The position numbers and the translations under genes are program-made. Shown here piece by piece: positions 35,631-51,714 of a stretch of 64,000 nucleotides of DNA. Every line of letters starts with the position of its first letter. Within the stretch, counting starts at the first letter, position 1. The DNA comes from Acidiferrobacterales bacterium (lineage in GTDB: Bacteria; Pseudomonadota; Gammaproteobacteria; Arenicellales; Poriferihabitantaceae), in NCBI GenBank assembly GCA_019633985.1, contig JAHQWE010000050.1, forward strand, positions 1-64,000. The letters are read 5' to 3'. The notes under the pieces are model-generated. The model saw nothing but the letters and a program-made list of their open reading frames with translations, was not told the DNA's origin and did not search any database.

Positions 35631-37652
35631 ATGAAAAATAACCAATCGGTTCAAAAAATCGAAAAGCTTTTTATTGAATCGGCGACCAAGCTACAGAATG
35701 GAGACCCCGCCGGCGCCCGTCGAGGTTTGGAAAAGGTGGCGAAGCTTGCTCCTAAAAGCGCAGCTGTTTGGTACAACCTGGCTTTGGCTGGACAACACCT
35801 GGGTCTCCATCACAAGGCGGTCAAGGAGTACCAGAAATCACTCAAGATTAATCCTTCGCAAATTGATGCAATGGTGAATCTTGGTTTGTCCCACAAGGCG
35901 CTGGAGCAAGTCGATGAGGCCAGGAGGTTGGCGGAAAAAGCGCTGAATATGCAGAAAGGGCATCCAAGGGCGCTGAACCTGCTAGGTTCCTTACTCGCTG
36001 AATCTCGGCAATACACCGAAGCTATTCCACTGCTGGAAGAGGCTTTGGCAAACGATCAGGAGAACACGGACGCAAGGCAAAATCTGGCGAATTCCTTTCT
36101 TGAGTCAGGAGATTCACAAAAGGCAGAGGAAGTGATTTTGCCGTTGGTGGATGAAGAAGCGAGTGCAAAGGTTCCAACCGAGCTCTACGTGCAAACACTG
36201 CTTGATCAAAAACGTTACATTGAGGTGCCACCAATACTCAAGAAACTAAAAAGTCGGTATCAAGGAGACGAAGATGTTCTGATTTTGGAAATGTCGTTTT
36301 GTGAACTGATCAATGACAATTTTTCCGTTGTAGATATTGCGGAGAAGATTCTGAATAAATCTCCTCGTCATGCACGAGTCTGGAACTCGCTGGGTAGTGC
36401 TTACTTTCAACTGGATAGTATTGCCAATGCCAAGAATAGCTATCAGAAAGCGATGGACTTCGATGCTGAACATCCTGAATACAGCAATAACCTGGGTTTG
36501 GCTTTTGCTTCTCTAGGTGAAAAAGACAAAGCGGAACACTATTATAGAAATGCGCTGAGTCTGAGTTCGGATTATGTGGAAGCGTATCGCAATTTGGTAG
36601 CGATGAAAAAGTTTACATCTCTGGAAGACCCCGACGCAGTAAAGATAAACCACCTTTGGGAAAATGATGAGCTTCCGGATCAAACCAAGTGCAAAGTGGC
36701 ATTTGCACTTGGGAAAATCTATGATGATTGTGGTTTATACGATCAGGCATTTGCGAGTTACGACGAAGGAAACAGATTGAAATCTCTAGAGATTGACATG
36801 GATTTTGATCAATACTTTGGTCATATAGATCGCATTATCGATGTATTCGACCGCAAACCTGCGCAATCAGTTGCCGTCAATCAAAACCTCGGACAACCAA
36901 TTTTCATACTAGGTATGTCTCGCAGTGGTACTACCCTGGTAGAGCAAATTATTTCCCGTCATCCAGGTGTTACAGGTTGTGGCGAGTTATCTTGTATCGA
37001 ACGCGCGATCGGAAACCTGGAAAAAAATCCAGATGGTATGAAAATTTACCCGGACGACTTTATCGGGTTAAGTGAAGAGGTTTTAGCAAAAGAAACCAAG
37101 GGATATGGAGACTGGGTGTCCCGCTTGCACGATATTCAGACCCCATTTTTTACCGATAAAATGCCGTTTAACTTTGTTCATATCTGGTTGATCAAAGCGT
37201 TGTTTCCAAAATCATCCATTGTTCATTGTCACCGACATCCCCTGGATGTGATTGTCTCGAATTACTTTCAGTTGTTTGGTTCTGATATTAACTTTGTCTA
37301 CAACCTGGAAGTGCTGACAGGATATTATCTCCGCTATCACAAACTGATGCGCCATTGGCACCAACTGTTTGCTGGGGAAATTTATAAGGTGCAGTACGAG
37401 GCGCTGGTTGCTGACTCTGAAAATCAAACCCGATTACTGGTAGAAGGGGCGGGGTTACAATGGGATGAGGCTTGCCTGGATCCTAATCGATCTGACACTG
37501 CGGTTAGAACTGCAAGTATCTGGCAGGTACGAGAAGGTATCTATACGAGTTCAAAAGAACGGTGGCGACGCTATGAAAAGCATCTTGGAGCAGTCATCGA
37601 GACTTTGCAGTCTCACCATGTTCTAGACGAGGAATGCAGATACCTGGATTGA
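35631..37652 (+). CDS. TPR-repeat protein fused to a sulfotransferase domain
   Basis: 673 aa with no signal peptide or membrane helix. Residues about 1-330 hold roughly nine TPR units (for example AAVWYNLALAGQHLGLHHKA, NLLGSLLAESRQYTEA, NNLGLAFASLGEKDKAEHYY). Residues about 415-670 form a sulfotransferase: the 5'-phosphosulfate loop is FILGMSRSGTTLVEQI (about 423) and the 3'-phosphate region is HCHRHPLDVIVSNYFQ (about 531). It should use PAPS to sulfate a hydroxyl or tyrosine of an acceptor held by the TPRs. This fusion is widespread in marine gammaproteobacteria, but its substrate is not established. Monocistronic, ending at a strong terminator. Confidence 0.88.
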   Translation: MKNNQSVQKIEKLFIESATKLQNGDPAGARRGLEKVAKLAPKSAAVWYNLALAGQHLGLHHKAVKEYQKSLKINPSQIDAMVNLGLSHKALEQVDEARRLAEKALNMQKGHPRALNLLGSLLAESRQYTEAIPLLEEALANDQENTDARQNLANSFLESGDSQKAEEVILPLVDEEASAKVPTELYVQTLLDQKRYIEVPPILKKLKSRYQGDEDVLILEMSFCELINDNFSVVDIAEKILNKSPRHARVWNSLGSAYFQLDSIANAKNSYQKAMDFDAEHPEYSNNLGLAFASLGEKDKAEHYYRNALSLSSDYVEAYRNLVAMKKFTSLEDPDAVKINHLWENDELPDQTKCKVAFALGKIYDDCGLYDQAFASYDEGNRLKSLEIDMDFDQYFGHIDRIIDVFDRKPAQSVAVNQNLGQPIFILGMSRSGTTLVEQIISRHPGVTGCGELSCIERAIGNLEKNPDGMKIYPDDFIGLSEEVLAKETKGYGDWVSRLHDIQTPFFTDKMPFNFVHIWLIKALFPKSSIVHCHRHPLDVIVSNYFQLFGSDINFVYNLEVLTGYYLRYHKLMRHWHQLFAGEIYKVQYEALVADSENQTRLLVEGAGLQWDEACLDPNRSDTAVRTASIWQVREGIYTSSKERWRRYEKHLGAVIETLQSHHVLDEECRYLD

Positions 37653-39987: not shown

Positions 39988-41178
39988 TTGACGCCGCTTA
40001 CTCGCCTCGACGACGCCCGTATTCTAATTTACAGTCACGATAGTTTTGGATTGGGGCACCTGCGTCGATGTCGGGCTATCGCACACGAACTGGTAGGGCG
40101 ATACAAAGGAATATCAGTGTTGATTTTATCGGGTTCCCCGGTAATCGGAAGTTTTGAATTCAGGGCCAGGGTGGACTTTGTGCGCATACCCGGTGTGATT
40201 AAGCTAAAAGATGGCAGTTATACCTCCTTGGGATTGCATATCGATTTAGATCAAACACTTGAAATACGCGAGGCGATAATTCGCAAAACAGCGGAAGCGT
40301 TCAAACCCGATTTGTTTATTGTCGATAAAGAGCCCCTGGGATTGGAAGGGGAGGTTAAGGAGACCTTGAGAATGCTACACAGTCGGGGTGTCTATAACAT
40401 TCTTGGCCAGAGAGAAATTATCGATGATCCCAAAGCGCTGGCAATAGAGTGGGGAAGAAAGGCGGCGCTTCCAGCGATTAAGGATTTATATGATGAAATT
40501 TGGGTCTACGGGCCCGAGCAGTTCTATCACCCACTGGCGGGGTTAGACCTAGAGCCGGAGGTGGAAGATAAAGTGTTTTACACCGGCTACCTGAAACGTG
40601 GTGGCGTACAATTTGATGAAGCAGAGAAAAGGGAGAACCCTTATTTCCTGGTTACTCCCGGTGGCGGCAAGGATGGGGAAGAAATGGTGGAGCTTGTGTT
40701 TGCGTCTTGTGTAAGCTGCACCCAACTCGAAATGGAAGTGGTATTTGTGCTTGGGCCATTTATGGAGGAATCAAAGCGACAAGAAATACATAGTCGCGCT
40801 GAAAAATACGCCAACTTTTCCGTTATCGACTACCACCCTCGCATTGAGTCCTTGATCGAACACTGTAGCGGTATGATTACCATGGGTGGGTATAACACTT
40901 TCTGTGAAATTCTAAGTTTCGACAAGCCTGCCATCGTTTTACCTCGATTCGAGCCTCGCACCGAACAGTTGATTCGTGCTCGAAGGGCAAAGGAGCTCGG
41001 TCTGGTACAAATGTTGGAACCAGAGCAATTCGATGTTGAGAGCTTGCAACCACTGATAGAAAGTCTCTCGGCTCAGCCCAAGCCATCTGCTGCTTTGATA
41101 CCCGGCATGTTAGATGGTATGGATTCTGTTTGTGATCGGGTTGTTAAGCTTTTAAATGCACGCCCGATCGCTGCCTAA
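39988..41178 (+). CDS. MurG-like predicted glycosyltransferase (COG4671 type), first of pair
   Basis: 396-aa soluble GT-B-fold protein. It opens with a Rossmann-type stretch ARILIYSHDSFGLGHLRRCRAIAHEL, where G-x-GHL-R-R resembles the MurG acceptor loop. The C-terminal half has PYFLVTPGGGKDGEE and ITMGGYNTFCEILSFDKPAIVLPR, the nucleotide-sugar site of MurG/GT28-like enzymes. The start is TTG at 39988 with AGGA 9 nt upstream; no ATG fits. The gene is 14 nt before a diverged paralogue and forms a three-gene operon with it and a deacetylase-like gene. Donor and acceptor are unknown. No membrane helix is seen. Confidence 0.75.
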   Translation: MTPLTRLDDARILIYSHDSFGLGHLRRCRAIAHELVGRYKGISVLILSGSPVIGSFEFRARVDFVRIPGVIKLKDGSYTSLGLHIDLDQTLEIREAIIRKTAEAFKPDLFIVDKEPLGLEGEVKETLRMLHSRGVYNILGQREIIDDPKALAIEWGRKAALPAIKDLYDEIWVYGPEQFYHPLAGLDLEPEVEDKVFYTGYLKRGGVQFDEAEKRENPYFLVTPGGGKDGEEMVELVFASCVSCTQLEMEVVFVLGPFMEESKRQEIHSRAEKYANFSVIDYHPRIESLIEHCSGMITMGGYNTFCEILSFDKPAIVLPRFEPRTEQLIRARRAKELGLVQMLEPEQFDVESLQPLIESLSAQPKPSAALIPGMLDGMDSVCDRVVKLLNARPIAA

Positions 41179-41192
41179 GAATTAGCCGATCG

Positions 41193-42338
41193 ATGCGGGT
41201 TGCGATTTATGTCCAGCATTTATTGGGCACAGGTCATTTGGTGCGCATGCAAGCCCTCGCAGAGGCTTTACATAACGCGGGGCACGAAACCTTGCTGGCT
41301 TCAGGGGGAAGGTTGTCCGAGATGGGGCCCTATCGATCTCTTCAGTTGCCAGTTGTCAAAACCTTACCGGGAGACTTCCTCACATTACTCGACGAAAACC
41401 TGAATGAAGTAAACGATAGCTGGAAAGCAGACCGCACGGATCTGCTAGTGAGCGCCATTCAGAAATTTACGCCCAATATTATGGTGATCGAGACCTGGCC
41501 ATTTGGCAGGAGGCAGATGCGATTCGAAATTTTGCCATTGATGCAACGATTGATCGCACTCGACACGCCGCCCATGATAGTAAGTTCTATTCGTGACGTG
41601 TTGCAAAGAAGGAAGCAGAAGCGCCGAATACAAACGCTATCTGAAGTAGAGCGTTACATCGATTTGGTGTTGGTGCACGGGGAAGAGACTTTGACACCGC
41701 TGTCGCAAAGCTTTGAAGAAGCTGAAGAATTGCAAGCGAATGTTGCCTATAGTGGATACATCGCAACACATCGCCAGGAGAGCGCTAAAGAAGAAGCCCC
41801 TTCGACTCCTTCTGGCGAAATAGTGGTATCCGCTGGGGGCGGTGCGACAGGTTCCTTGTTGCTAAAGACAGCGGCAAGAGCGGCATTCATGGACACACGA
41901 TCATGGCGATTGTTGGTCGGGCCGAATGTGGAAGCCACTGTTTTTGATGTACTGCAGAAACAACAATCAAGCCGCTTGATTGTGGAGCGAAACCGTAAGG
42001 ATTTTCGTCATCTACTTGCACATTGCGCCGCTTCAGTCTCTCAATTTGGATATAACACAGCACTGGACCTTCTCATCGCAGGATGCCCCGCAGTGGTCGT
42101 ACCCTATGCGGATGACGGAGAAACTGAACAGACTCAACGTGCAGAGGGGTTTGAAAAAAGAGGTTACGTAGTTTCTATTGAACAGGATTTGATTACCCCC
42201 GAGTCGCTATTGTCCGCTATCCAAAAAGCACAATTCCACCGAACCCGTGAGAACCCAAGTCAGGATTTCAATGGGGCGGTACACTCGGTGGAACTTCTTG
42301 AATCACATTATCAAAAATTTCTGAGGAAAAACGCTTGA
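41193..42338 (+). CDS. MurG-like predicted glycosyltransferase (COG4671 type), second of pair
   Basis: 381 aa, same fold and order of motifs as the gene before: MRVAIYVQHLLGTGHLVRMQALAEAL at the N-terminus, then VVSAGGGATGSLLLKTAARAA and SQFGYNTALDLLIAGCPAVVVPYADDGETEQ in the donor domain. Overall identity to its neighbour looks low, so this is an old pair rather than a recent duplication; the two may add successive sugars. The stop overlaps the next gene's TTG start by 4 nt, so those two are coupled. Sugar specificity cannot be inferred. Confidence 0.75.
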   Translation: MRVAIYVQHLLGTGHLVRMQALAEALHNAGHETLLASGGRLSEMGPYRSLQLPVVKTLPGDFLTLLDENLNEVNDSWKADRTDLLVSAIQKFTPNIMVIETWPFGRRQMRFEILPLMQRLIALDTPPMIVSSIRDVLQRRKQKRRIQTLSEVERYIDLVLVHGEETLTPLSQSFEEAEELQANVAYSGYIATHRQESAKEEAPSTPSGEIVVSAGGGATGSLLLKTAARAAFMDTRSWRLLVGPNVEATVFDVLQKQQSSRLIVERNRKDFRHLLAHCAASVSQFGYNTALDLLIAGCPAVVVPYADDGETEQTQRAEGFEKRGYVVSIEQDLITPESLLSAIQKAQFHRTRENPSQDFNGAVHSVELLESHYQKFLRKNA

Positions 42339-43108
42339 GCGCATTTAAGCCATTATACGAAGAACTGGATGAGTGGAATTTCGACGGTGACGAGGTGATG
42401 CTTTGGTGGCGAGACGATGATGCTGTCGCTGATACCGCTTCCTTGCAGCAGCTTTTCTCATTGTCAACCAAGTACGATTTACCGTTAGCTTTGGCGATTA
42501 TCCCGGGTGAACTGGAGGATTCACTAGTGAGAGTGGTAAAAAATTATCCTCTCGTACAGGTTTTGCAGCATGGAGTCCGTCATGAAAATAATGCCCCGGA
42601 TGGCGAAAAAAAACAGGAGCTATCTGCCAATGCGGAGCTGGATGTTTTACAGGCGGACATCGCTAAAGGGCTCGCACTTTTGTCAAAGAAATTTGATCAG
42701 CAGTTTTTGCCTGTGATGGTGCCGCCCTGGAATCGAATAGACGACAAGGTGATTGCGTTGCTCACCCAGCTCGAATTTCTGGGGTTGTCGTGTTTTACTG
42801 CAAGAAAACAACCAGAAGTTGCTGAAAATATCTGGCTGGTGAACACGCACGTCGATATTATTAACTGGAAGTCAGGCAAAGTGTTTGCTGGTGTAGAGGA
42901 ATGCGTTTCTCAACTGGTTAGTCATTTAAAGGCTAAGAGAACCGGTGTAGCGGATCGCGCCGAGCCTACCGGTTTAATGACACACCATTTGGTTCACGAC
43001 CAGGAAAGCTGGGAATTTCTTCGACAGCTGTTTGCCATTTTGGACGAACACCCAGCAGTGACTTGGCTCTCAGCCGAACGCGCGTTCCAAACAAAATGGA
43101 GAACTTAG
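42335..43108 (+). CDS. Divergent polysaccharide deacetylase-like protein
   Basis: 257-aa protein resembling the NodB/CE4 barrel. Motif 1 appears as MLWWRDDDAVADT in place of TFDDG, motif 2 as LQHGVRHEN in place of H-S/T-x2-H, and motif 3 as MVPPWNRID, like the usual R-PP-W/Y. The metal-binding Asp and two His could therefore be kept. There is no signal peptide, so it would act in the cytosol, probably on a sugar nucleotide or lipid-linked glycan made by the two preceding enzymes. It starts with TTG overlapping the previous stop. A non-catalytic role is possible given the altered motifs. Confidence 0.68.
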   Translation: MSAFKPLYEELDEWNFDGDEVMLWWRDDDAVADTASLQQLFSLSTKYDLPLALAIIPGELEDSLVRVVKNYPLVQVLQHGVRHENNAPDGEKKQELSANAELDVLQADIAKGLALLSKKFDQQFLPVMVPPWNRIDDKVIALLTQLEFLGLSCFTARKQPEVAENIWLVNTHVDIINWKSGKVFAGVEECVSQLVSHLKAKRTGVADRAEPTGLMTHHLVHDQESWEFLRQLFAILDEHPAVTWLSAERAFQTKWRT

Positions 43109-43333: not shown

Positions 43334-44509
43334 CTATCTGCGGGTTTCGCGGTGCGTTCGAACCGCTTGATTAATATGTTTTGCAAGCTGCTGTGCGGCC
43401 ACTCCTAATTGATGATGGGTTTGATATTTCTTCACCGACGCGTTGCGCATATTCGCGAGCCTGGATGGATCACCCAAAAGAGATTCAATCGCAGTCGCCA
43501 ATCGTTGCGGGGAGTTAGCTTGTTCTGGATCTTCAACTAGTAGACCAGTTGTTCCATGCTCCACGATTTGTCCGACACCACCGGAGCGCCCACAAACCAC
43601 GGGCAATCCATTGGAAAGCGCTTCGAGCATCACCATACCCAACGCTTCGTTGATCGCGGGCCAGACAAACAAATCTGACGCTTGCATGAGTTGATCAATG
43701 CGCTCTTCGTCTTTACGGCCAATGAAATGTACTCTACGATCGAAATCGTTTCGAAATAACTCTCGCACCAGAGTTTCGGCAACGCCATCCCCAACCACAA
43801 TGAGTTGCCAGTCTTTTCGCTGAATATTTTCGACTGACTCAGCTAGAACCCGATAAGACTCTAGTTTGCTGTCTTCTCGCATCATCGCAACAGTCAGAAG
43901 CCAGTATTGGTCAGGGTTCAGTTTGTATTGCGCCGCGAGTTCGATTTTTAACTGCCGCAGATTGCTTGCAGACATAGAGTCCGTATTACGTGCAAGAAAA
44001 GGTGAAACAGATATCAGCTTTTCTGGGGATTCCAAAGCACTTTCAAGGGCAAAGATATCCCGAGGGTTGATGCAAAACACTTTTGCCGCAAGCCGGATCG
44101 CCGCTACACTGGACTCAAATCCTGTTTGCCAGCTACCGTCGCGATGTTTTGGTGAGATAGAGGCTTCAGCGACAAAGTAGGGAATACCCAGTGCGTTGGC
44201 TACTAAGGGGCCAATCCAGTCCGGAGCTTTATGGTAAAGATGGTAGGTAAACCAGGCGTTTGGCTGACTGCCGAAATGCTGATCGAGAAATTTTTCAACA
44301 AGAATCTCAGCGGTTTTTTGTCCCTCGGTTTGAAGCAATCGTTGCGATGCTTGATCACCATCTCCCTCCCAGCTACGAAAGTCGGATGCGAGCTCCACTC
44401 GATATCCAGCCGCCTCTAGTGCGGCCATAAACAATCGGGCGATTTTCCGGTCGCCAGAAGGACGCGGTGAGAAAGGAGATTTCATCGGTGCGTAGAAGGC
44501 GATATGCAT
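43334..44509 (-). CDS. Glycosyltransferase family 4 protein, last gene of the Opp operon
   Basis: 391 aa from ATG 44509 (MHIAFYAPMKSPFSPRPSGDRKIARLFM); the track's start is a GTG three codons earlier. GT-B fold with a retaining-type E-x7-E motif in INEALGMVMLEALSNGLPVV, preceded by LLTVAMMREDSKLESYRVLAE and LIVVGDG. GGVGQIVEHGTTGLLVEDPEQ is also typical of GT4. No membrane segment. It lies 21 nt (from this ATG) after the other GT4 gene and ends facing the deacetylase operon. Donor and acceptor are unknown. Confidence 0.82.
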   Translation of the reverse strand: MHIAFYAPMKSPFSPRPSGDRKIARLFMAALEAAGYRVELASDFRSWEGDGDQASQRLLQTEGQKTAEILVEKFLDQHFGSQPNAWFTYHLYHKAPDWIGPLVANALGIPYFVAEASISPKHRDGSWQTGFESSVAAIRLAAKVFCINPRDIFALESALESPEKLISVSPFLARNTDSMSASNLRQLKIELAAQYKLNPDQYWLLTVAMMREDSKLESYRVLAESVENIQRKDWQLIVVGDGVAETLVRELFRNDFDRRVHFIGRKDEERIDQLMQASDLFVWPAINEALGMVMLEALSNGLPVVCGRSGGVGQIVEHGTTGLLVEDPEQANSPQRLATAIESLLGDPSRLANMRNASVKKYQTHHQLGVAAQQLAKHINQAVRTHRETRR

Positions 44510-44530
44510 CGGAAGCACTATTAAATTCAG

Positions 44531-45783: not shown

Positions 45784-46932
45784 TTACTTATATGGATCAG
45801 CCGCATCTCGCAAGCCGTCACCAAAGAAGTTGAAAGCGAGAATAATCACCACCACAGGTAACACCGGTAAAATCAGCCAGGGGTAAAGCGCAACAACGTT
45901 AATGTTTTGTGCTTCATTCAATAAAACACCCCAGCTGGTGATTGGTGGTCGTAAACCAAGGCCGAGGAAAGACAAAGCGGTTTCGCCCAGTATCATGCCC
46001 GGAATCGACAAGGTTGCTGAGGCGATAATATGGCTTGAAAAACCGGGTAGCAGGTGTTTTTTAATGATCCTGCCCGGAGGGGCACCCATCAGTCTCGCCG
46101 CGGTACAGTAATCCTCTTCTCGTAATGCGAGTAACTTGGAACGTACAGATCGTGCGAGCCCGGTCCAGTCTAGCAGTGCAAGGATGACAGTGATGCCGAA
46201 AAATACCAGCAGCGGACTCCATGTCACAGGCAAAATGGCCGACAGCGCCATCCAAAGGGGAAGTTCGGGGAAAGATCGAATAATTTCAGTCATTCGTTGT
46301 ATCACTGAATCTACCCAGCCACCGTAGTAACCGGCAAGGCCGCCGAAGAGTAGACCAAGGAAAAGGCTGACTACAATTCCGCCGAGACCGATTAGTAGTG
46401 AGATTCGCGCTCCGTAAACGATCCTGGAAAACATGTCTCTACCAAGACGATCGGTACCAAACAGAAACAGTGTCTTGCCTTCTGCGGGGCAGAAAAAATG
46501 GAAATCAGCTTTAACCAGACCCCAGAACTCATAGCTGTCACCGCTGCAAAAGAAACGAATTTTTTCGACTTTTTCCGGATTGGGCGTGTACTCGCGCTTC
46601 AAGTTGTCCATATTAAGGTGGTAATCATTGCCGTACACGAACGGCCCGATGAATTCACCTTCATGAAAAAAATGCAGACGCTGAGGAGGAGAGTAAATAT
46701 GGTCAGTATGTCGAGACTGATAGTTATAGGGTGAAATAAACTCGGAGATTAACGTGCTTCCATACATAAGAAGCAAAATTATCCCAGACCAGACCGCGAG
46801 TTTGTGGCGTTTCAGTTTCCACCAGATCAGCTTTTTCCGAGACGCGAGGAAAAATTTCTCCTGTCCTTCGCTCAGCTTTTCAATAGATTGCGGATCGAAT
46901 GGCGCTTCAGAAACGTAATGATCATCCCTCAT
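45784..46932 (-). CDS. Opp/Dpp-family ABC permease, OppC/YejE-like
   Basis: 382-aa inner-membrane permease. TM1 (KLAVWSGIILLLMYGSTLISEFI) is followed by a long periplasmic segment of about 110 residues with two cysteines (FFCSGDSY and FFCPAEG), then GTDRLGRDMFSRIVYGARISLLIG and five more helices. The cytoplasmic EAA loop is EEDYCTAARLMGAPPGRIIKKHLLPG. The extended periplasmic loop is like YejE-type permeases. The start overlaps the oppB stop by 4 nt. Confidence 0.9.
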   Translation of the reverse strand: MRDDHYVSEAPFDPQSIEKLSEGQEKFFLASRKKLIWWKLKRHKLAVWSGIILLLMYGSTLISEFISPYNYQSRHTDHIYSPPQRLHFFHEGEFIGPFVYGNDYHLNMDNLKREYTPNPEKVEKIRFFCSGDSYEFWGLVKADFHFFCPAEGKTLFLFGTDRLGRDMFSRIVYGARISLLIGLGGIVVSLFLGLLFGGLAGYYGGWVDSVIQRMTEIIRSFPELPLWMALSAILPVTWSPLLVFFGITVILALLDWTGLARSVRSKLLALREEDYCTAARLMGAPPGRIIKKHLLPGFSSHIIASATLSIPGMILGETALSFLGLGLRPPITSWGVLLNEAQNINVVALYPWLILPVLPVVVIILAFNFFGDGLRDAADPYK

Positions 46933-47927
46933 TTTGCCATCTCCCCCTGGAGTCGAATTCTGGGATCAAGCCAGGCTAAAAGCAGGTCAGATATCAGCAT
47001 GCCGACTACTGTCAGCATGGCGAGGAACATTAAAAACGACCCAGCCAGGTACATATCCTGGCTTTGCAGGGCGCTTAACAACATGGGGCCAGTAGTGGGC
47101 AGTGACAGAACGATGGCCACGACTTCAGCGCCTGAAATCACGCTGGGTAACAGACTGCCAATGTCGGCGATAAAAAAGTTGAGAGACATACGTAAAGGAT
47201 ATTTACGTAGGAGCTTTCCAGGCGGCAGACCCTTTGCCTTGCCGGTGAGTACATACTGTTTCTCAAGCTCGTCCAGTAAATTGGCACGTAATCTTCGAAT
47301 CATACCGGCAGTTCCCGAAGTGCCGATCACGACTACCGGAATCCAGAGATGCTCCAGAACCGATTGAAACTTACCCCAGCTCCAGGGTTGATCGAGGTAT
47401 TCGGGTTCCATCAATCCGCCAATGGACGTGCCGAACCAGATATTGGCCAGATACAGCATCACCAGCGCGAGTAAAAAGTTAGGTGTGGCCAGGCCAATAA
47501 AACCGAGTAGCGACAATCCATAATCTCCCCAGCTGTATTGGTGCGTTGCAGAATAGATGCCAATGGGGAAGGCAATTAACCAGGTGAAAACAATCGTGAT
47601 GACAGACACCATTATGGTTAGCCAAATACGATCACCAATTACTTCCCGAACAGGTAAATCAAATTCAAAGGAGTAACCAAAGTTACCGACGACAAATCCT
47701 TTGACCCAATTGAAATACTGCACGATGAATGGCTGATCAAGACCGTACTCGGCACGAAGAAAGGCAATCTTGTCTGGGTCGACAGATTCACCCTGGCTTT
47801 CCAGTTCAGCGATATAAGTCTCGAGATAATCACCCGGTGGAAGTTGAATGATGACGAAAACAATGAAGCTGATCACCAACAATGTTGGGATCATCATCAA
47901 CAAACGTTTCAGTACATAACCGATCAT
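46929..47927 (-). CDS. Opp/Dpp-family ABC permease, OppB-like
   Basis: 332-aa partner permease. TM1 is MIGYVLKRLLMMIPTLLVISFIVFVIIQLPPGD, the OppB/YejB hallmark, and six helices are visible. The EAA-type loop is EKQYVLTGKAKGLPPGKLLRKYPLRMSL. It overlaps oppA and oppC by 4 nt each, giving an equimolar pair with OppC. Substrate class is not readable from permeases. Confidence 0.9.
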   Translation of the reverse strand: MIGYVLKRLLMMIPTLLVISFIVFVIIQLPPGDYLETYIAELESQGESVDPDKIAFLRAEYGLDQPFIVQYFNWVKGFVVGNFGYSFEFDLPVREVIGDRIWLTIMVSVITIVFTWLIAFPIGIYSATHQYSWGDYGLSLLGFIGLATPNFLLALVMLYLANIWFGTSIGGLMEPEYLDQPWSWGKFQSVLEHLWIPVVVIGTSGTAGMIRRLRANLLDELEKQYVLTGKAKGLPPGKLLRKYPLRMSLNFFIADIGSLLPSVISGAEVVAIVLSLPTTGPMLLSALQSQDMYLAGSFLMFLAMLTVVGMLISDLLLAWLDPRIRLQGEMAK

Positions 47928-49819
47928 TCGAACCAGAAAGTATCAGGCCGATAGACACCAAAGAAAGCGGTGGGGGTCCAACTGTACAAGCCCTCCTTCG
48001 GTACGTTGCGCAGATGATTATTGACTACCACCGGTTGGGGGACGCCACAGATTAATCCGATGCTAAAAACCTCCTCGCTGTAAATTTTTAGCATTTTGTG
48101 CCAGATTGCTTCGCGCTCTTCCAAGCCCTCTGACTTACTCCACTGGTAGTAAAGAGCCAGGAGCTCTTGCGCTTCCTTTATATCAGGCGCCTCTCCGACT
48201 TTTTTCCTGGTCTGAAAATATTGTCCCCACTTTGGCCACTGTAACTGCGTCTGATCAATAGGTGCGAACTCCCCCGGGCTCATATTCCCTGTCGGCATAC
48301 CGTTGTCGATGCCGTTAAACATGGCCATCATGGCGTCACCAGAAAAAACCCGTTCTCTAAACACTTCTCTTTGCGATGCTTTTACATAAAGCATGATGCC
48401 GAGCTTGCGCCAGCTCTCACCGATCAACTCAAGAATATCGGTTTCTTCAGTCCCCTCGCCAGCAGTGTGCAAGATGATTTCAAGCGGTTCGCCATTCTTC
48501 ATCAAGCGAATGCCTCGATTGTCCCGTTGATTGAGACCCAGCGCGTCCAACATCTCGTTGGCAGTATCCAGATCAAAATAGCTCCAACTACTTTGATACG
48601 CATTGGTATGCAGATTGCACCCGGGTAACACGGTGTTACCAGTTGCTTCTGCGAGCCCAAAATAGATCACCTGATTAATCTCGTGTCGATTGATACCAAT
48701 CGACAACGCATGCCGAAATTCGCGTTGGCGAACCAGCTCGCGCCAGATCGGGTTGTTGCTGTTCAGGTTGGGGTATAAGGCATACTGAGATCCCGCACCG
48801 TTTTGCCAAAGGCGCAAGGTATAGTCGCCGCGTTCCTCACCGCCTTTTAAAAAAGTGTAGTTATCCAGCCGAATGTACCTGCCTTGCAGATCAGCCTCTC
48901 CCGCGCCAGCTTTCGCGGCAACCAAACTCGAGCTTGTAATTTGCATTGATACAGTGTCGATATAGGGGAGCTGCAGACCATTGGTATCAACACGATGAAA
49001 ATAAGGGTTGCGTTTGAACACATAGCGTTCAGCGGGCGGTTTAGTGCTGTTTACCCAGGGCTGCAAGATAGGTAACGCAGGATTGTCATTCTTATAAGGG
49101 TGATTTCGGCGGTGGTGCAAACCTGCCCAGTTTCGGGTGCCAGCCTCTTCAACTTTGGCAGCGATCACCTCTGGATCGTTATAGCGAGCGTGAAATTGTT
49201 GCAGATAGTGACCGGGGGCGTATAAATACAATGGTCGAGGTGCAGCTAGCGCGGGCAACAAAAACGGGTTGGGCACATCCCATTCGTATCGAATAGTTTG
49301 ATCGTCAATTACTGTAAAAACTGGAGGCTGTCCATCCACGACCAGTTCGCGGGGTAAACCGAACGGATGCAGTTCTTCATTGTTGAGAACATCTTCCCAA
49401 TAATAGCGAAATGCCTCGCTGGTGAACGGTTCGCCGTCTGACCAGCGGTGACCCTTGCGTAATGTAAAGGTGAATACCCTGCCATCTTTAACATCGAAAT
49501 CCAGCAAGATATCTGGCTTCATCTCGAGATCTTGATCGAAGGCAACAAGCCTCGCATAGGAGTAGACCGTCATTAGCCGAATATCTTTCTTTTTGCCCAT
49601 CAGCAGTCGCAAGGTGCCGCCGTATCTACCGGGGGTGCGTTCCCCTTCCAAGGTCACAACACTCGGCTCCGAAGGCAGTCTTTCCGACACGGGAGGGAGC
49701 TGTTTCTCCGCGACCAACTCCTTCAAGCTATCCGGTTCGCTATACGCCCATGACGAAGGCGCGATTCCAAGTATCGCAATTGAGATTAAAAGAATATTGA
49801 GGCGGATCAATTTATTCAT
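47924..49819 (-). CDS. Periplasmic substrate-binding protein, OppA family
   Basis: 631-aa SBP family 5 protein. A Sec signal peptide (MNKLIRLNILLISIAILGIAPSSWA) lacks a lipobox Cys, so the protein is soluble periplasmic. The mature part begins with a Glu/Pro-rich segment, then RYGGTLRLLMGKKKDIRLM, VFTFTLRKGHRWSDGEPFTSEAFRYYWEDV (the family signature region) and FRHALSIGINRHEINQVIYFG. It is longer than E. coli OppA (543 aa). Family members bind peptides, nickel, opines or oligosaccharides. The gene overlaps both the ATPase gene and oppB by 4 nt. Confidence 0.88.
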   Translation of the reverse strand: MNKLIRLNILLISIAILGIAPSSWAYSEPDSLKELVAEKQLPPVSERLPSEPSVVTLEGERTPGRYGGTLRLLMGKKKDIRLMTVYSYARLVAFDQDLEMKPDILLDFDVKDGRVFTFTLRKGHRWSDGEPFTSEAFRYYWEDVLNNEELHPFGLPRELVVDGQPPVFTVIDDQTIRYEWDVPNPFLLPALAAPRPLYLYAPGHYLQQFHARYNDPEVIAAKVEEAGTRNWAGLHHRRNHPYKNDNPALPILQPWVNSTKPPAERYVFKRNPYFHRVDTNGLQLPYIDTVSMQITSSSLVAAKAGAGEADLQGRYIRLDNYTFLKGGEERGDYTLRLWQNGAGSQYALYPNLNSNNPIWRELVRQREFRHALSIGINRHEINQVIYFGLAEATGNTVLPGCNLHTNAYQSSWSYFDLDTANEMLDALGLNQRDNRGIRLMKNGEPLEIILHTAGEGTEETDILELIGESWRKLGIMLYVKASQREVFRERVFSGDAMMAMFNGIDNGMPTGNMSPGEFAPIDQTQLQWPKWGQYFQTRKKVGEAPDIKEAQELLALYYQWSKSEGLEEREAIWHKMLKIYSEEVFSIGLICGVPQPVVVNNHLRNVPKEGLYSWTPTAFFGVYRPDTFWFE

Positions 49820-51714
49820 CGAGCACTCGTATCGATTTGCTGTCGCACAAAATGCTCAGGAGCAGTTTCCAGCATTGCACTGCTGACATGGGCTGCAACA
49901 GAAAATTGTTCAGGCCAGTTTTGCTCATCCTGAGTGTCTGCGAGTTCGTCAAACGCCAAAGGCCTTGCGAGGTCAGCCACCGGTACTGCCTTGAGTAAAC
50001 TTTGTGTATACGGGTGGACTGCCTGATCAAAAAGATTTTCGCTTGGCGCAACTTCTACCAGTTTGCCGCGGTACATGACTGCAACGCGATCAGAAATATA
50101 GTCGACCACAGCAAGATTATGCGAGATAAACAGATAGCTTAATCCTAGCTCCTGCTGCAGATCCCGCATCAGGTTTAACACCTGAGCCTGAATGGACACA
50201 TCCAGTGCAGAAACAGGCTCATCACAGATCAATAGATCAGGTTGCAAAGCAAGCGCTCGAGCAATACCTATGCGTTGTCGTTGTCCGCCGCTAAAGCTAT
50301 GGGGATAGCGTCTCAGATATCTTGGATCAAGACCCACCAGGCGCATCAGTTCTTTGCACATCTCAACCTGGTAATCCTGCCCTCCCAAATTGTGGATGAC
50401 CATTGGTTCACGCAAAATATCGAATACCGTCATACTTGGATTCAGTGAACCCACGGGGTCTTGAAACATGTACTGCACTCTGCATCGGTATTCAAATAGT
50501 GCCTCTTCCTCAAGCTCCTCAACTTTCAGTGACTGGCTTCGATCGTGGAACAGGATCGAGCCGCTGTCGGGGCTCATTGCCCGAGCGACCAGTTTGCCGA
50601 GAGTCGATTTGCCACTGCCACTCTCTCCCACAAGACCCAGGCATTCACCGCGTTTGATGGTTAGGCTGACATCATCAACAGCAACCACAGGTGGAGCGGT
50701 TTGGTTTAGCGACCAAGCGCTGGCTCGCGCGCCAAAAGTTTTACGTAGCTGATGAATTTCCAGTATGTTTTTGGATGTACCCTGGGATGAGGTTGCTTGA
50801 TTTTTTTGCCTGCGCTGCAGAAATTCCCCAACTTCTGCATGTACTTCGCGCACTGGCGTTAGTCGAGGCTGTTTTCCGACATCTATTCGAGGCACTGCCC
50901 TGAGTAATGCTCTGGTGTATTCGTGGCCGGGCGCATTAAATATCTGTTCCGCCGAGCCACTCTCCATCACGTCCCCCCGATAAACCACAACCACCCTATC
51001 GGCAACATTTGCGACAACGCCGAGATCATGGGTAATCATGAGTACCGCCATGTCCATTTTTTTCTGAAGCTCGCGAATCAGCTTCAAGATCTGCGCCTGA
51101 ATGGTTACGTCAAGCGCGGTTGTGGGCTCATCGGCAATCAGCAGGGCGGGGTGGCAGATGAGCGCCATCGCAATCATGGCGCGTTGACGCATGCCGCCAG
51201 ACAGTTCAAAAGGGTAGGCTTTAAAGGTGCGTTGGGGGTCATGAAAGCCCACTAGCTCCAGCATCTCCAAACAAGTTTTTTTGCCCTCTTTAGCAGACAT
51301 CTGGCGGTGGAGATGAAGCGCTTCTGAAACTTGGTCGCCCACGGTATGCAGCGGCGACAGAGACACCATGGGTTCCTGAAAGATCATGGAGATATTGCCA
51401 CCTCGATGCCCCCGCATTTCGGCGCCATCCGGATGTAAAGCTAGCAGGTCGATTTGTTCTCCCGGCCTTTCCGAGAAAAGGATTCTGCCGTTAAAGGGGT
51501 CTGCGATATCGGGCAAAATACCCATAATCGTTCTGGCAATCACCGATTTGCCAGAACCTGACTCTCCTACCAAAGCAACTGTCTCTCCTCGATCAATATC
51601 GAACGATACTCCGCGAATGATATCTACCAGGCTGTCGTGAATCCGAAACTGTACGCGAAGGTTTTGAACAGATAGGAGGGGCGTGTCAACTTTTGATGGT
51701 GTTGCGCTGTTCAT
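49816..51714 (-). CDS. Fused dipeptide-type ABC ATPase (OppD-OppF in one chain)
   Basis: 632 aa with two full ATPase halves. The first has Walker A LVGESGSGKSVIARTIMG (about residue 50), LSGGMRQRAMIAMAL and ALLIADEPTTALD. The second has LVGESGSGKSTLGKLVAR (about residue 375), FSGGQRQRIGIARAL and LLICDEPVSALD. Each half ends with an oligopeptide-type C-terminal extension (PGHEYTRALLRAVPRID; AVHPYTQSLLKAVPVAD). Both sites look competent. Fused forms like YejF are known. It is 12 nt after the oxygenase gene and overlaps oppA by 4 nt. Confidence 0.93.
   Translation of the reverse strand: MNSATPSKVDTPLLSVQNLRVQFRIHDSLVDIIRGVSFDIDRGETVALVGESGSGKSVIARTIMGILPDIADPFNGRILFSERPGEQIDLLALHPDGAEMRGHRGGNISMIFQEPMVSLSPLHTVGDQVSEALHLHRQMSAKEGKKTCLEMLELVGFHDPQRTFKAYPFELSGGMRQRAMIAMALICHPALLIADEPTTALDVTIQAQILKLIRELQKKMDMAVLMITHDLGVVANVADRVVVVYRGDVMESGSAEQIFNAPGHEYTRALLRAVPRIDVGKQPRLTPVREVHAEVGEFLQRRQKNQATSSQGTSKNILEIHQLRKTFGARASAWSLNQTAPPVVAVDDVSLTIKRGECLGLVGESGSGKSTLGKLVARAMSPDSGSILFHDRSQSLKVEELEEEALFEYRCRVQYMFQDPVGSLNPSMTVFDILREPMVIHNLGGQDYQVEMCKELMRLVGLDPRYLRRYPHSFSGGQRQRIGIARALALQPDLLICDEPVSALDVSIQAQVLNLMRDLQQELGLSYLFISHNLAVVDYISDRVAVMYRGKLVEVAPSENLFDQAVHPYTQSLLKAVPVADLARPLAFDELADTQDEQNWPEQFSVAAHVSSAMLETAPEHFVRQQIDTSAR

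Follow-up and report, generated by a model that had tools for sequence, protein, structure and literature searches.

Organization of the locus

The window analysed here, a 64,000-nucleotide stretch of DNA from an Acidiferrobacterales bacterium (contig JAHQWE010000050.1), carries three tandem genes, termed GT_A, GT_B and PDA, which encode two glycosyltransferases (GTs) of the GT28/MurG-like type and a divergent NodB/CE4-fold deacetylase (Table 1). Both GTs score above the 22-bit cut-off of Pfam family Glyco_tran_28_C (PF04101), and the only other gene of this family in the host genome is the true murG at window position 1601. The motifs GLGH and GGYNT..E..PR.EQ of GT_A are kept across the aligned homologues, and the relatives of GT_B with solved structures are MurG and YjiC. 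The initial annotation had placed the three genes in a single unit, which is borne out by their arrangement and by the four-base overlap of GT_B and PDA. Their start codons are consistent with the homologue alignments; the TTG starts proposed earlier hold for GT_A and PDA, whereas GT_B starts with ATG. Two GT4-type GTs and four genes of a peptide-type ABC importer follow on the opposite strand, convergent with the triad. A scan for promoters and terminators gave no more signals than shuffled sequence did.

Table 1. Positions of the genes and motifs described in the text, numbered along the window
Feature	Position	Strand	Basis
GT_A, GT28/MurG-like glycosyltransferase, 396 residues, TTG start	39988..41178	+	Pfam PF04101, 37.1 bits; motifs kept in 16 homologues
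GT_B, second GT28/MurG-like glycosyltransferase, 381 residues, ATG start	41193..42338	+	Pfam PF04101, 36.3 bits; 33-member alignment
PDA, divergent NodB/CE4-fold deacetylase, 257 residues, TTG start	42335..43108	+	Alignment, AlphaFold2 model, Foldseek
TTGA start/stop overlap of GT_B and PDA (translational coupling)	42335..42338	+	Same four-base overlap in relatives
PDA motif 1, RDDD (residues 26-29), end of strand 1	42410..42421	+	R26, D28, D29 invariant; model strand 21-30
PDA motif 2, HGVRH (residues 79-83), two candidate metal histidines	42569..42583	+	H79, G80, H83 invariant; after strand 74-79
PDA motif 3, PPWNR (residues 130-134)	42722..42736	+	P130, P131, W132, N133 invariant; after strand 124-129
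PDA late motif, HH (residues 217-218), candidate catalytic-acid histidine	42983..42988	+	Invariant; after strand 212-216
GT4a, GT4 glycosyltransferase, 394 residues, convergent with the triad	43334..44518	-	Pfam PF00534; adjoins PDA in relatives
GT4b, second GT4 glycosyltransferase, 414 residues	44531..45775	-	Pfam PF00534
ABC importer permease, Opp/Yej type, OppC-like	45784..46932	-	NCBIfam Opp4C, 265.6 bits, under its cut-off
ABC importer permease, OppB-like	46929..47927	-	NCBIfam Opp4B, 241 bits, under its cut-off
ABC importer substrate-binding protein, peptide/nickel family	47924..49819	-	Homology, 49% identical to S. meliloti
ABC importer twin ATPase, YejF/GsiA-like	49816..51714	-	Homology, 55% identical to S. 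meliloti

Predicted structure and conserved motifs of PDA

The AlphaFold2 model of PDA is of high confidence, with a mean predicted local distance difference test (pLDDT) score of 96.5, and the invariant residues sit just past the strands of the barrel. Across 42 homologues, residues R26, D28, D29, H79, G80, H83, E95, P130-N133, S152, D174, G213, H217 and H218 never vary. Foldseek comparison with the Protein Data Bank (PDB) gave 89 matches at E up to 0.001, and among the matches listed most are CE4 enzymes; the solved CE4 deacetylases match with E of about 1e-7 and template modelling (TM) scores of 0.5-0.7. Ranked first among the fold matches is a turret protein from Haloferax tailed virus 1 (PDB 8qpg), with an E of 7.6e-8 and a TM score of 0.59.

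CE4 enzymes possess an Asp-His-His metal triad, a catalytic Asp and a late His, for which the candidates D28, D29, H79, H83, H217 and H218 of PDA are all invariant and located at strand ends in the model. Because this confident model matches solved CE4 deacetylases, the metal site of PDA looks intact, with its predicted geometry apparently kept in the motifs. The PDA of the window has no match in Pfam or NCBIfam, PF01522 and DUF2334 included, and the PDA profile retrieved nothing reliable from the sequences of solved structures. Weak matches at E up to 1 were obtained to DUF2334 (PF10096) for 26 of the 42 family members and to PF01522 for 17. PDA is a divergent relative of PF01522, not a member of it. 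The altered motifs described in the initial annotation are present (RDDD, HGxxH and PPWN) but not aberrant, as they are invariant in the homologues; they constitute the signature of a separate, divergent branch of the deacetylase-fold family that comprises these 42 members. No signal peptide or anchor is apparent on PDA, and the cytosolic location first suggested stands insofar as PDA is probably a cytosolic NodB-fold deacetylase that acts with the two GT28-type enzymes.

A conserved locus in Proteobacteria

A gene-neighbourhood survey showed that the association within the triad recurs. GT_B lies directly upstream of PDA on the same strand at 33 of 51 PDA loci, with the same four-base overlap at 17 of these 33, and GT_A, GT4a and GT4b are seen at 36, 33 and 35 of the 51 loci, respectively; a few of these loci are near relatives of each other, and many of the regions are cut by contig ends. 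The coupling of GT_B with PDA is not due to chance. In line with joint action of the two proteins, natural single-frame fusions join GT_B to PDA (locus L075) and PDA to an N-acetylglucosamine (GlcNAc) transferase and a methyltransferase (locus L073). The latter protein (L073:9593-12013) has 806 residues and its transferase belongs to PF11397; similarly long open frames surround PDA in genomes G488 and G508 of the same family as L073.

The triad had been regarded as self-contained, but the same genes recur beside the two GT4 enzymes and the importer, joined in many relatives by an MsbA-like ABC transporter. Within the host family and order, GT_A, GT_B and PDA, followed by the convergent GT4a, GT4b and importer genes, are retained in the same order. 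In other Proteobacteria the genes form one run of GT_A-GT4b-GT4a-histidine phosphatase-GT_B-PDA-importer (L061, L062, L070 and L076), near which a divergent MsbA-like ABC transporter of about 900 residues and a cyclic-nucleotide-binding protein are often found, as well as an adenylate cyclase, a sugar dehydrogenase or an MscS channel. A sugar dehydrogenase is often, and a polysaccharide lyase (PF14099, heparinase II/III) sometimes, present in the loci of relatives. Where PDA is missing from the genome, the remaining genes hold their positions (L093-L099). Beside GT_A, a cyclic-nucleotide-binding protein, an unclassified protein of ~213 residues and a membrane adenylate/guanylate cyclase recur (for example, L049:4647-7211), and the neighbourhood suggests local cyclic-nucleotide control.

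The distribution of the genes was compared in the same 100 relatives for GT_B, the ABC transporter family and PDA. GT_B is present in 54 of them; the ABC family occurs in 50 of these 54 genomes and in none of the other 46 (Fisher p 6e-24, uncorrected for shared ancestry), and PDA in 27 of the 54 and in none of the 46, so that no genome has PDA without GT_B. On these counts, GT_A, GT_B, GT4a, GT4b and the ABC transporter form the core of the system, to which PDA is a frequent addition. Farther out PDA is rarer: of the genomes sampled, 9 of 323 in the class and 34 of 349 in the phylum have it.

A second type of cluster (L081:8106-19899, L082:1-13300 and L060:1-13494) combines homologues of GT_B and PDA with GT4 enzymes, APH-type phosphotransferases and a standard ABC exporter. 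It includes a heparinase II/III by Pfam in L081 and a UGD-like dehydrogenase near L081 and L082, and one such cluster lies on a plasmid of Candidatus Manganitrophus (Nitrospirota). We found no literature that links COG4671 or DUF3095 with a deacetylase.

In the window itself, a 2-oxoglutarate-Fe(II) oxygenase gene (PF13759; 51727-52419) lies directly upstream of the importer genes, and a TPR-sulfotransferase fusion of 673 residues (35631-37652) lies with a porin gene upstream of the triad. The fusion and the porin are conserved in the examined genomes of the same genus and also occur in one further genus of the family. The sulfotransferase, the porin and an upstream BamC-like gene were not counted in the system, because their conservation, seen within the genus, does not extend past the family.

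The linked ABC transporter family

Members of the linked ABC transporter family (for example, L049:14496-17138) have about 880 residues, with a ~280-residue insertion within the nucleotide-binding domain. The predicted model (pLDDT 82, 17 sequences) has a membrane domain and a nucleotide-binding domain that is split by this long helical insertion. The Walker A/B and signature motifs are mostly degraded across the 33 members, and the Walker A motif (GxxxxGKS) is intact in only five (L096, L097, L098, L099 and L103). As a rule, the linked transporter lacks the ATPase residues, which is the odd part of the picture.

Neither an MsbA-like ABC transporter nor a cyclic-nucleotide-binding protein is encoded in the window. 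The lack of a flippase pointed out in the initial annotation is true of this stretch, but not of the usual context of the gene family.

The phazolicin-protecting polysaccharide locus of Sinorhizobium meliloti

On the pSymB replicon of S. meliloti 1021, the interval 822.5-841 kb contains homologues of all nine window genes, in a related order. GT_A is 47% identical to the product of pSymB 837153-838319, and GT_B is 37% identical over 375 residues to that of 839621-840724, mapped as SMb21265. The identities are 35% for PDA, 37% for GT4a and 52% for GT4b, and reach 66% and 68% for the OppC-like and OppB-like permeases, compared to 49% for the substrate-binding protein and 55% for the twin ATPase. 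In the reverse direction, GT4a is the best match in the host genome to the protein mapped as SMb21252 (E 6.6e-55; next 7e-12).

As the strain 1021 pSymB record is without annotation, locus tags were mapped by gene order. An annotated sister strain lists, in succession, a PIG-L deacetylase, an aminotransferase, a sulfotransferase, a GT4 enzyme, MscS, GT4a, PDA, MBL and DUF3095 proteins, followed by a sugar dehydrogenase, an adenylate cyclase, a lyase, the importer, GT4b, a methyltransferase, the ABC transporter and a Crp-like protein; alignment was used to locate GT_A and GT_B, which this listing lacks. Four anchors were taken from the literature: SMb21247 is a deacetylase and SMb21248 an aminotransferase (PMC5498481), while SMb21250 is a glycosyltransferase and SMb21257 a truncated adenylate cyclase (PMC12542648). 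A gene count from the four anchors leads us to infer that SMb21252 is GT4a, SMb21253 is PDA and SMb21265 is GT_B. The anchors place the locus at SMb21247-SMb21271, and on this basis the KPS genes SMb20804/SMb20805 were rejected as the S. meliloti counterpart.

Travin et al. (2023) reported that nine genes between smb21252 and smb21271 are required for an uncharacterised surface polysaccharide, the phazolicin-protecting polysaccharide (PPP), and that phazolicin resistance is strongly reduced in smb21252 and smb21265 mutants (PMC10128002). They also cite screens that implicate orthologues in the pyocyanin sensitivity of Agrobacterium, and some of the genes in symbiosis. During Myxococcus predation, seven of the nine are up-regulated (PMC10315480). 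Set against the earlier idea of an undescribed pathway, a partly characterised system with the same genes does exist, its product being uncharacterised.

Proposed function of the locus

Taken together, the window probably contains a gammaproteobacterial PPP-type locus, the core of which would make an amino-sugar surface glycan that PDA would de-N-acetylate in the cytosol. The isolated-looking triad would accordingly be part of a new gammaproteobacterial member of an already named, poorly characterised surface-polysaccharide locus. In our model, GT_A, GT_B, GT4a and GT4b may assemble a short or repeating glycan from nucleotide sugars at the cytosolic face. PDA, which is co-translated with GT_B and has the fold and motifs of a deacetylase, would strip the N-acetyl group from the just-added hexosamine to leave free amines. 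The MsbA-like ABC transporter, which in many relatives is associated with the locus together with a cyclic-nucleotide-binding partner, may then move the product outward, and the neighbouring peptide-type importer probably serves to retrieve products of turnover or a different envelope fragment. Tentatively, a hexosamine/hexuronate glycan is the likeliest chemistry, as the loci of relatives often include a UDP-sugar dehydrogenase and in some cases a polysaccharide lyase. Genes that carry scattered annotations in many Alpha- and Gammaproteobacteria would thereby be connected to a single locus with a published phenotype, namely antimicrobial-peptide resistance and up-regulation under Myxococcus predation, and cytosolic N-deacetylation would offer testable chemistry for a polysaccharide of unsolved structure.

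Several points weigh against this assignment. In the host genome (assembly 88% complete), the only ABC paralogues found are two divergent ones, located on contigs C68 and C50, both of which have degraded nucleotide-binding (Walker) motifs and are without a cyclic-nucleotide-binding neighbour. Because the MsbA-like transporter and its partner are absent from the window, the locus is called PPP-like; dispersal of the transporter, as in genomes G002, G003 and G010, is possible. Moreover, the co-occurrence among relatives is uncorrected for shared ancestry, and PDA is missing from half of the GT_B-bearing relatives, which makes deacetylation an accessory step. On the S. meliloti side, the locus tags were assigned by gene order, and the text of PMC10128002 is silent on whether SMb21253 (PDA) or the ABC transporter is among the nine genes.

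The enzymes might instead make a small free or lipid-linked amino-sugar compound, as the initial annotation proposed, comparable to the GT and deacetylase steps for bacillithiol and mycothiol precursors; this appears unlikely. It would suit the lack of a polymerase or initiating transferase in the locus, the frequent action of GT28-type enzymes on lipids, the histidine phosphatase alongside the GTs in many relatives, and the capacity of four GTs to yield a defined oligosaccharide. However, the compound was envisaged without an export route, whereas the locus has an importer and, in most relatives, linked MsbA-like transporter genes, and for the S. meliloti counterpart a surface polysaccharide and a barrier phenotype have been reported. 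A bacillithiol/mycothiol-type pathway was rejected, since GT4a and GT4b fall far under the BshA and MshA cut-offs (GT4a, 71.6 bits against 273.7 for BshA) and the deacetylase is of the NodB fold, not PIG-L. A Wzx/Wzy pathway was also rejected: the initiating transferase, flippase and polymerase are absent from the window open reading frames read, the rest of the genome not having been searched for them.

In a further, rather doubtful reading, the locus family makes a partly de-N-acetylated glycan, built entirely in the cytosol, and exports it through a novel type of ABC transporter that has lost its ATPase site many times and is under the control of a cyclic-nucleotide-binding partner and a local adenylate cyclase.

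Instead of being an N-deacetylase, PDA might have an O-acetyl group as its target or might serve GT_B as a partner without catalytic activity, but this is improbable. The CE4 fold does include esterases and pseudoenzymes, both of which are among the structural matches of PDA, and half of the GT_B-bearing relatives do without it; yet 42 divergent members share without exception the two Asp residues of motif 1, both His residues of motif 2 and the late His pair, which would be unexpected in a dead enzyme. Least likely, the locus modifies or recycles cell-wall sugars while the Opp/Yej-type importer takes in muropeptide fragments: the GTs are MurG-like, PgdA shares the deacetylase fold and a related YejBEF-YepA importer recycles peptidoglycan in Agrobacterium (PMC9790009), but S. 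meliloti yejABEF and yepA (smc00951) lie outside this locus (PMC10128002), and recycling needs neither the GT4 genes nor a sugar dehydrogenase.

Comparison with known systems

The window locus resembles the PPP locus of S. meliloti in having homologues of SMb21252 and SMb21265, the two genes for which single mutants were assayed, together with co-localised GT_A, GT4b, PDA and a peptide-type ABC importer. They differ in organization: the window has two convergent gene groups, next to which no sugar dehydrogenase, cyclase, lyase, methyltransferase or ABC exporter is found, whereas in S. meliloti a methyltransferase and the MsbA-like ABC transporter lie beyond the GT_B homologue in the same region, and PDA comes after GT4a rather than after GT_B. 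Compared to MurG and the macrolide-type GT28 transferases, GT_A and GT_B share the GT28 C-terminal domain and a glycine-rich GH motif near the N-terminus, but are not MurG equivalogs, as GT_B scores 37.5 bits against the TIGR01133 cut-off of 250 bits and TIGR01133 is not listed for GT_A. The linked ABC family has the membrane and nucleotide-binding domains of a half-transporter, similar to the MsbA, cyclic glucan and HepA exporters, and departs from them in its long insertion and mostly degraded Walker motifs. Similar to the NodB/CE4 deacetylases (PF01522, with the related DUF2334, PF10096), PDA possesses the barrel fold with motifs at the expected positions, whereas its RDDD, HGxxH, PPWN and HH motifs depart from the usual forms and the protein is tied to glycosyltransferases.

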